Source: Methanobacteriota archaeon
GTDB taxonomy: Archaea; Thermoplasmatota; Poseidoniia; Poseidoniales; Poseidoniaceae
Reading direction: 5' to 3'
Assembly (NCBI GenBank): GCA_018659375.1
Contig: JABJMO010000012.1
Span: 1-41,523, forward strand
DNA length: 41,523 nucleotides
This document shows, in pieces, positions 906 through 4,400 of the stretch. Position numbers and translations under genes: made by a program. Position 1 is the first letter of the stretch, and every line of letters begins with the position of its first letter. The notes beneath the pieces were generated by a model, which ran no database searches, had not been told where the DNA came from, and worked only from the letters and a program-made list of their open reading frames with translations.

Positions 906-1472
906 TCAAACTGCTTGATTCCAACTTAATCCTCGGTAAGTCTTCAAGGTTGCACCTTCAGCGTCACCTGGAGGATTGTAGATAATTCTAATTGTTGCAT
1001 CAACAAGTGGAGTTCCATCAGCCAAGTGAGTCTTGACATATATGTCATCACCAGTACTAAAGGTAGATATCACTTCTTCACCATCAAGTGTCACTACGTC
1101 ACCGAAAGTAACTAGTGAATCACTGTTAGATGGTGAGAAACCGTATACTTGAAGTGGCGAAGCTAGGTTGATTGTCTGAGATTCCGGATCACCTGTTGCA
1201 TTGATATAGGCTACTGTTACTTCCACAGCTTGTGTTGCAAGAACTGTTTGTGCTTGCCCAATTGTGATCTTCCAGTGGGCTGTTTCAATGCTACCAGTAT
1301 CGACGTTTTCAGCGCTAAATGTCACTACAGGGACTCCCTTGGTATCTGTATCAGCAAGTTGTGCTGCCCACACATAAACAACACCAGAAAGTACCACAGT
1401 AATAGCAACCATTAGGATAGTAGCGATAACTGGGCTCACAGCAGATTCGTCATCTGAAATAGTTTCTTCCAT
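906..1472 (-). other. Pilin-like domain inside the giant protein; possible internal translation start
   Basis: The last 188 residues of the giant protein begin at an internal ATG (1472-1470) and read as a free-standing pilin precursor: [11 protein letters not shown], then the hydrophobic helix [16 protein letters not shown] continuing to VYVWAAQL, then a roughly 150-residue beta-rich head. This matches the archaeal Pilin_N (DUF1628) pattern, in which prepilin peptidase PibD cuts just before the hydrophobic helix. A GAGGAAG stretch lies 5 nt upstream of the ATG. It also encodes the acidic Asp/Glu run, so it may be coincidental. Either a fused domain or an additional independent product is possible. 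Confidence 0.6.
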
Positions 1473-4400
1473 GAATTCTTCCTCATCGTCGTCTCTTCGT
1501 CCGGCAAAGACAAGAGCACTAACAAACAAACCAGTTAAGGCAACCGCTATGATACTTGGGGCGAATGATGCCACAGATAGTGCACCAATAGTCGAAACTG
1601 TAACAGGTAATTTGTCATCTCCAGTTTGCCAGTCTTCTAGAATTGCTCCACCGTATCCTTGCTCTGTGTGACCACATTGGCTTGCTTCACTCCATGCTAC
1701 ACTAGTTCCTGCAGCATTGGAGGTCATCAAGTTGTTACACCAGTTCTTGTCTTCAAATGCCGGTCTTCTATTAGATTGAGTGCCGTCTGCGGACTCACCA
1801 ATTCTACCAGGTTCTGACCACTTGCCAAATACTTGGTTTCCTTGAACAGCGTTGTGAGATTCTGGTGAATCAGACTGTATGCTGTTACTGGCTGGAGTGC
1901 AGACTTGACCTGGATTACAGGTGACTACATCCACTTCAACCCAAACCTCTGTTGTCTGGTCAGTAACGTATACTTCCCAATCATCAATGTCAAGTGAAGT
2001 ACCAAATGCTGGCGGTGTGTATAGACGTGGTAATTGAACTTCGGTATGACCGTCGGTTTGTAGAGTAACCTTGAGCAGGTGATCGTAGGTGTAGGCACCG
2101 TCATCTCCTCCAGCGTTAATGCTAAAGTCGACTGGAACCCATGTACCAGGCATGATGTTGTTAACCCCGTTGAAGTCAAATCCTTCAGCGTCATCTAGGT
2201 AGTAGTCTGGGACATTTTCTACAACATTGTCAACCTTAATTGCCAGTGTAACAGATACTGATTCTTGCACGTAGTTGTTTGGTGACAATGCAGTATAGTT
2301 AGGCATGTAAGATGGTTCAAGAACAGAATCAGATAATGTAAGAGTCATCTCACAGTATCCGTTAGCAGTTCTTGTTTGGTGTATACCATTGTTGTTTAGC
2401 ATGTCTACTTCCCATGGTTCAGCGTTAGTTGTAGCATCGGTAATCAAATTGAATGATAGTGTATCTCCAACGATTGAGTGGCTGTAGTAGTTACTAGATG
2501 TACAGGTGTTGGTGTCTTCAAGAACCCATGTCAAATCTGCATCAACATGATCGATGTCTGACTTAATCGCCGACAAATCAAAGGTTAATGCATCAGAATC
2601 TGTTGTATCCTCTACTAGAGTCACTCGGTAATTACCGTTTAATTCACCAGTGAAACTGTTGGATGCATCAGTACTTGGTACTTGACCAGATACTGCAATT
2701 ACTGGTTCATCATTTACCGGAGTAACTGAGAACGGTATTACAACTGGGTTAGCTTGTTGGTTTTCTGCACCATCATCTTCTAGAGTCAGTGTAATGTCGC
2801 AAATACCTCCTTCTTCCCATGCTTGGTTCTCGACGATTACAAGTTCATCGACTCCATTTACATTGGTTTGAAGGGATATCCCAATTTGGTCACAATCCGC
2901 TGCAGCGTCCCAAGTATATACTTGGTCTACTGGGTCTTGCTCATTGGCCATATCTCTGATGAACGAGTTTATTGTATCATTAGCAACCTTACCAAGTGGT
3001 TTGGTGTAACTAGTAAATCCTTCATCTCTAGAGTTGAAACGGTTACCAGCTGCGTCAGCATAAAGGTAGACATTTCCATTATCGCAGTCTGGGTCAGCAT
3101 CAATTCTTGCATCACAGATAACTGGTGCATCGTTAACATTGAGGACTGTGTAGACAATAGTCTTAGTAGCAGTTTGACCATGGCTATCAACAACTTCATA
3201 GGTTAACTCAACAGTACCGAATTGATCGTTAATTGGAGTAACTGTAAATGTGCCTGATGCACCAGTCAAATCAGTAAAGTCTGTCAATATACTCGCAAAG
3301 GCATCCATATTATCAGCAGTTACATCCCATAGCATAGTTGCTTCATCATCTTGTTCGTCATCAACAAAGGTAGACAAATCATAAGTAAGTGTTCCAGAGT
3401 CTTCTAGAACTCTTACATCAACGACCAAGTCAGTTATTTCTGGACATGCACGCAAGATATCAAATGTCAAAGTCTGGGAAGTTGACATTACCAAGCTAGA
3501 TTCTGTAGCCCAATCATATTGGCAAGTGTGTCTTGCTTCAGCAGCAGTCTTAACCATAACTTGGTAATTGTTTGCAGCAGTTGGAACATTACTAAATTCG
3601 AATGAACGATGTATTAGTACTTCGTTATCGATTGTACCATCTGCGAGATCTAACTTATTCATTACCAGTTCATAACCTTCTGTTAGTGTCTCTGCACCTG
3701 TTCCAACTGTAGATTGTAATGGAGCGACTGACGTGACATCATCAGTACCTACATTTTGTACAGTTGCAACAATAGTCATGCTATCTGCGCTAGTACCACC
3801 AATTGACGATACAGGCACTGAAATTTCTAGGTAACTGCCTTCAACTGAAATTGCATTAGCAGTAGGATCTAGTACCCATGTAGGATTGTTGTAGTAATAA
3901 ACATCTGTTGAGGTACTTGTTACTACAACTGCGTAATCTGCCGCATAAGGCAGTGTATGAACTCCATTAAAACCAGTGGTGGACCCAGCCATATCGTTGC
4001 TGTCTACATAGATGTAAACATCGTTAGCAGCGCTAGTGATACTGTCAAGTCCAAAGAACAGGTTTCCAGCATCATTGGTTAGGTACATTGGACCACCAAT
4101 TGCACCAGGCATAGCATATCCTGATGGATTTAATACATTGTTACCAAACCAGTCATCTGAAACTCCATCAGCAACCATTGTCCCTTCAAATACAGGAGAG
4201 CTATAAGCTGTGTAATCGCCATCAGATATAATCGACAGGCCTACAGATGCAGTAGGTTCTAAGCCAAGATGGTTCGCATCGATATCTAGCCAGTTTGCTT
4301 CATCAACAATGGATGTAGTATCAACTAGCATTCTTGTTTCATCAAGCGGGAAGTCAATTACAGTTAGCCTAGAGTTTGTCTGAGCATCAATTTGATTACC

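Follow-up and report, generated by a model that had tools for sequence, protein, structure and literature searches.

Few surface subunits have been studied as thoroughly as type IV pilins and, to our knowledge, all described type IV pilins begin with their signal. Likewise, every class III signal that we know of sits at the extreme N terminus of its precursor, and we know of no prepilin peptidase substrate in which a membrane helix precedes that signal. Modular pilins carrying large added domains do occur, as exemplified by the minor pilins of Streptococcus sanguinis, and membrane polyproteins of the viral type are cut into separate products at internal signal sequences.

In Candidatus Poseidoniales (Marine Group II), which are archaea common in the ocean, attachment has been ascribed to an archaeal flagella operon, with a gene encoding a giant protein joined to a pilin going unmentioned in the excerpts of these papers that were covered (PMC6461757, PMC6741140, and PMC6864105). 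The main text of a census of archaeal pili makes no mention of Marine Group II (PMC4858521). A prior description of such a giant-pilin fusion was not found in the literature searched, outside the scope of which lay most subscription journals. Here, we describe a gene of this kind from a draft Ca. Poseidoniaceae (Marine Group IIa) genome comprising 80 contigs, together with its relatives across the order. The window refers throughout to the whole stretch of DNA analyzed, 41,523 nucleotides in length.

Results

A single ORF on the minus strand of the window (906-17339) ran open without a stop for 5,477 aa, encoding a giant surface protein with a type IV pilin at its C terminus. The features that follow are all on this strand. 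A Sec-type signal sequence (residues 1 to 38; 17226-17339), hydrophobic from residue 9 to 38 after KKNN, preceded an ectodomain spanning approximately residues 39 to 5245 (1605-17225), composed of a CBM_56-like patch, right-handed beta-helix/NosD repeats, cadherin/Ig-like domains, and a juxtamembrane domain. In the Pfam search of this region, Beta_helix and NosD scored above cut-off, and CBM_56, Cadherin_5, and Big_9 scored below it. The CBM_56-like patch and the right-handed beta-helix/NosD stretches, located at 14361-14546, 7551-7991, and 5985-6509, hint at polysaccharide binding by the giant ectodomain.

The ectodomain led into a membrane anchor helix (approximately residues 5259 to 5280; 1500-1565) with the pattern VxSFAPS...GLFVSALxxxxRR, delineated by hydropathy, conservation, and a predicted helix of low confidence, and predicted to run from outside to inside. 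The acidic loop beyond it (residues 5281 to 5299; 1443-1499), which began with RR at 5281-5282, had no stop at any locus and is predicted to be cytoplasmic and to form the n-region of a class III signal. Alignment with the Haloferax pilin 8fj5 placed the predicted prepilin peptidase site at A5300/V5301 (1437-1442), at the start of the pilin N-terminal helix (residues 5300 to 5329; 1353-1442), which was recognized by Pfam Pilin_N. A beta head of 148 residues (residues 5330 to 5477; 909-1352), delineated with AlphaFold2 and Foldseek, completed the protein. Hydropathy, scanned over 19 residues along the entire protein, revealed only three long hydrophobic segments, at residues 9-38, 5246-5281, and 5298-5329, corresponding to the signal sequence, the anchor, and the pilin helix, respectively.

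A preliminary description of this DNA had proposed that an unbroken frame runs from the giant ectodomain through a membrane helix and a charged loop into a complete pilin; the ORF and its Pilin_N match agree with this, and GAGGAAGAATTCATG was found in the window as described. The loop had been given as 21 residues. It is charged, as proposed, but its length before the cleavage site is 19 to 20 residues. In relatives, the spacing from RR to A was 14 to 19 residues.

The suggested Pfam search of the last 188 residues returned Pilin_N (PF07790) at 34.6 bits against a cut-off of 25.2, and the tail also matched NCBIfam TIGR02537 (archaellin/type IV pilin N-terminal domain) at 42.1 bits against a cut-off of 20. 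The Haloferax volcanii pilin 8fj5 aligned across the cleavage region of the fused pilin in a VSPVI context, and this alignment identified the succession of a class III signal, namely a charged stretch, a cleavage site, and then a hydrophobic helix. The signal was far from the N-terminal end of the precursor, the site being residue 5300 of 5477. In the AlphaFold2 model of the tail, two helices, the anchor among them being predicted with low confidence, were separated by a disordered loop and followed by a beta head with pLDDT mostly 77 to 92; the model thus contained the long helix and beta head of the type IV pilin fold. The three best Foldseek matches in the PDB were all archaeal type IV pilus or filament subunits (8fj5, 8rey, and 9myg; E 5e-5 to 4e-4), with modest TM-scores for a query that included the anchor. 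Foldseek matches to Kir channels were set aside as a generic two-helix plus beta-domain resemblance. The structural comparison supports a predicted pilin fold closest to that of the Haloferax pilus. In another genome, an 818-aa frame (L102; G004:C22) placed an ordinary class III signal and pilin helix first, followed by a very large, repeat-rich head.

Tail matches were present in 168 of the 171 genomes of Ca. Poseidoniaceae, a few of them, from incomplete drafts, being free pilins only. The fusion occurred in 15 of the 22 genera of Ca. Poseidoniales, a recurrence well in excess of chance, and in both families, the sister family contributing genera g15, g17, g19, and g21. The C-terminal region of the giant and the fused pilin were found in the same 15 genera, with exceptions at contig ends among the matches compared. 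Wherever the contig was long enough, the giant frames measured 4,500 to 5,500 aa, and in the single-contig genome G035 the fusion lay within a frame of 4,513 aa. Outside the order, no fusion was found among the matches listed for 391 sampled genomes of the phylum, which were short free pilins only.

Homologous giants kept the fusion, as the preliminary description had asked: no stop separated anchor and pilin in any of the 149 fused loci read, nor in 11 more from the second family. The '1 TGA' or '1 TAG' stops recorded for some genomes were inspected and lay at or after the end of the pilin, none of them between the two parts. Two recognizable proteins are encoded in one ORF and conserved as a single frame, as expected of a polyprotein. 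A sequencing or assembly error that fused two genes, which a stop codon between the parts in relatives would have betrayed, has a negligible probability. Although the window derives from a fragmented draft, probably a metagenome assembly, the fusion is not an assembly error because the identical junction recurred in independent assemblies from 15 genera, including the single-contig genome. In four drafts (G087, G103, G139, and G150), two copies of the pilin end of the giant were located on different contigs, reflecting either duplication or strain mixture.

The genomic neighborhood was conserved alongside the gene. Directly upstream and in the same direction lay a surface protein of 1,029 aa (17568-20657, minus), counterparts of which were found at loci from both families (L224, L226, and L227), and immediately downstream lay a HAD-family hydrolase (87-764, minus; Pfam HAD) that was also downstream at L223, L226, and L227. 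In G035, G179, and G186, the giant was flanked by a surface protein of ~1,030 aa upstream and the HAD hydrolase downstream, the upstream gene in G179 and G186 being cut by the end of the fetched stretch. Pilus assembly genes did not adjoin the giant gene. Further upstream of the surface-protein genes, a 1,540-aa FtsX/MacB-like permease (20901-25523, minus) overlapped a LolD-like ATPase (25520-26218, minus), and a similar pair was present in G035 (L224); it is possible that the two form a dedicated exporter or extractor of surface lipoproteins.

Conservation differed sharply along the tail. Across 111 loci, a slightly biased set given that part of it was found via helix patterns, amino acid identity reached 99.9% in the helix core, against 70% for the anchor, 59% where the head begins, and 45% over the final five residues of the loop. 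In a set of 69 distinct loci picked by whole-tail similarity, and thus without selection for the helix, the 21-residue core was identical in 68 and was encoded by 66 nucleotide versions. Fourfold-degenerate sites of the helix differed by 59% (111 loci), like those of the remaining tail. The residue immediately before Ala was free in the 111 loci, and the two acidic positions ahead of it were nearly fixed (D in 101 of 111; D or E in 109 of 111). In the second family, the helix core was slightly different and ended in (S/A)G. A helix with no role beyond anchoring would be predicted to vary like the first helix; the sequence pattern is one of strict constraint on the protein, in keeping with a putative prepilin site and filament core.

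One free pilin encoded in the window's genome was 92% identical to the fused pilin over 26 residues but only 77% identical in DNA. Recent gene conversion from free pilins was considered as the cause of the helix identity and rejected, because the DNA of the fused helix was no closer to this pilin from its own genome (77%) than to the fused pilins of other genera (77-81%). Ectodomain and head distances correlated at 0.78 across 97 loci, against a permutation maximum of 0.18, and therefore both parts travelled together.

A direct Pfam search of the window's genome for Peptidase_A24 gave no match. Weak matches in relatives led to a divergent peptidase family, and an alignment of its members found the copy in the window's genome (G000:C79:4711-5691), with AAWMDHKTRR and GGAD motifs. 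The family alignment kept both catalytic Asp residues and matched PF01478 and PF06847 (A24/Arc_PepC_II) as well as the FlaK crystal structure (PDB 3s0x; E 1.7e-12); A24 homology, both catalytic Asp, and a membrane protein are the features of a PibD/FlaK class III signal peptidase. Peptidases of this type were present in 17 of the 22 genera, comprising every one of the 15 fusion-bearing genera together with g14 and g22, and the other genera had neither fusion nor peptidase. Absence of a prepilin peptidase from the lineage, on which the cleavage proposal could have foundered, was thus not observed, as both the window's genome and each genus with the fusion contained the enzyme. Several individual fusion-bearing drafts gave no peptidase match, probably reflecting incomplete genomes. 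The class III signal peptidase of g14 and g22, both f2 genera, was more divergent, and these genera had neither the giant nor matching pilins. The window's genome also encoded four homologs of pilus/archaellum-type secretion ATPases, of which one lay in an archaellum-like locus and another in a Tad-like pilus locus, as read from gene context with no profile applied.

Smaller paralogs from at least four genomes (L097, G062:C120; L098, G020:C26; L099, G027:C19; and L100, G022:C211) joined the juxtamembrane domain of the giant directly to the pilin head. The anchor helix, loop, and pilin helix were missing, and the linker before them was largely gone. Where the ends were readable, these predicted secreted proteins had their own signal and a C-terminal anchor. 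Their sequences support a region read as one chain, with both flanking domains located outside the membrane, and suggest that the juxtamembrane domain and pilin head form a pair. Cleaved and uncleaved forms of the two-helix hairpin are both compatible with them.

Discussion

Given the gene structure, the hydrophobic segments, the conservation, and the presence of the enzyme, we infer a membrane topology, a cut, entry into a filament, pairing, and adhesion. The giant-pilin chain is probably a two-product polyprotein that a PibD/FlaK-type peptidase cuts at an internal class III site. The chain would be exported by Sec until the anchor helix acts as a stop-transfer segment, and the pilin helix would then re-insert into the membrane, such that the loop would be exposed to the cytoplasm, the side on which the PibD/FlaK-type peptidase acts. 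Cutting of this cytoplasmic loop at A5300/V5301 would release two products. One would be the giant, retained by an ordinary anchor helix and ending in a short acidic tail like that of its upstream neighbor, and the other a mature pilin, able to join a filament with the other pilins of the cell. Fusion would fix 1:1 synthesis and local release, and the pilin head could stay paired noncovalently with the last domain of the giant, coupling a giant surface protein to the pilus. Alternatively, the pilin may act as the dedicated initiating or minor pilin of the giant. Surface adhesion is the likely role of the pair. The fusion, the topology, and the PibD site put forward in the preliminary description are all supported; its additional route, an internal ATG, found no support.

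Access of PibD to a loop of 14 to 19 residues between two helices is questionable, given that we know of no substrate with such a preceding helix. The separation of the giant gene from pilus assembly genes, the occurrence of PibD in two genera that have no fusion, and the fusion-bearing drafts in which no peptidase was matched likewise count against cleavage. The strongest competing explanation, to which we assign a minority probability of perhaps one chance in several, dispenses with the cut altogether. The two helices would then remain in the membrane as a permanent hairpin, with the pilin head being an extra extracellular domain beside the last domain of the giant. The class III signals known to us being N-terminal would favor such an arrangement, as would the hairpin-less paralogs, which carry the head covalently on the ectodomain and link the same two domains directly, so that a covalently linked pair can evidently work; these paralogs therefore fit the uncleaved arrangement too and count against cleavage. 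A mere anchor should, however, drift, as the first helix does, whereas the pilin helix and its site are almost invariant despite saturated synonymous change. The near identity to a free pilin of the same genome over the 26-residue stretch and a cognate peptidase that is always present at the genus level also argue for cleavage. The earlier suggestion that the giant, if uncleaved, would be held by the pilin helix appears unlikely, since that helix is near-perfectly conserved when compared with an ordinary anchor helix.

Two further explanations alter how the ends are made. Recognition of the anchor as an archaeosortase segment (VPxFAP, helix, and RR) would imply two cuts, by archaeosortase outside and PibD inside, with transfer of the giant to a lipid. 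Most relatives have VPSFAPS before the helix and RR after it, and the window's genome encodes an archaeosortase-like membrane protein with the Cys/Arg motifs DECAG...NILRL (L093:1390-2367). That protein, however, falls below the Pfam cut-off, the window and some relatives read VASFAP, and VPXXXP-CTERM (TIGR04143) had no match above cut-off across the genome and was absent from the NCBIfam matches of the tail, in which the segment is not at the C terminus; we regard this version as improbable. Still less probable, with a very small chance of being correct, is that translation begins at an internal start and yields the pilin separately, with no proteolysis. In the window, the candidate start is M5290, an ATG with GAGG upstream, and an in-frame ATG occurred somewhere in the loop at 76 of the 111 loci. 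Its position was not conserved, the commonest being codons -6, -1, -8, and -10 relative to A, and a pilin begun at -1 would lack the signal n-region. An ATG at the place claimed was found in a minority of relatives, 25 of the 111 loops had no ATG, GTG, or TTG, the GAGG follows from Glu codons, and the frame was open through the loop at every locus.

Divergent archaeosortase-like membrane proteins with DECAGxHEMIF...NIxRL and weak similarity to PF09721 were also encoded at L087 to L092, as at L093 (G000:C78), and most of these genes had a GTP cyclohydrolase II-like gene and a DEAD-box helicase as neighbors. Several surface proteins of Poseidoniales end in a short helix plus RR/RK resembling a sorting signal (for example, window 28721-31612 and L099).

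Returning to cleavage by a prepilin peptidase, we lean toward the broader proposal that Poseidoniales encode a pilin at the C-terminal end of a giant surface-protein polyprotein, from which a cut at a class III signal inside the chain would yield a 1:1 adhesin-pilin pair. If true, this would be the first prepilin peptidase substrate known with an upstream membrane helix and the first known pilus subunit from a polyprotein. Were such processing demonstrated, there is a fair chance that the fusion would be regarded as a new kind of substrate. A deeply conserved pilin at residue 5,300 means either that prepilin peptidase is able to cleave multi-spanning proteins at internal sites or that a pilin helix serves some nonfilament role that is strictly conserved, and either outcome would surprise pilus biologists.

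Each known system accounts for part of this architecture. Giant surface proteins that carry beta-helix and Ig/cadherin-like repeats and are anchored C-terminally have the same Sec signal, repeat ectodomain, anchor helix, RR, and acidic tail, and the neighbor at 17568-20657 ends in the same anchored style. Unlike in those giants, the chain described here is predicted to re-cross the membrane into a complete pilin. Archaeal Pilin_N pilins, including H. volcanii 8fj5, share the D-D-x-x-A-VSPVI cleavage context, the hydrophobic helix, the small beta head, and a cognate PibD/FlaK-type peptidase in the genome. Their signal is at the N terminus, whereas that of the fused pilin is preceded by the Sec signal, the giant ectodomain, and the anchor helix. 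Modular pilins, such as those of S. sanguinis and the 818-aa L102, similarly combine a pilin helix with other domains on one chain, yet there the added domain comes after a pilin module at the N terminus; here, the pilin is preceded by ~5,280 residues, and a cut would therefore yield two separate products. Viral-type polyproteins offer the internal signal, the alternating topology, and the cut between products that is predicted here. In contrast to these, the giant-pilin fusion is encoded by a cellular archaeal gene, and its presumed protease is a cytoplasm-facing aspartyl prepilin peptidase.
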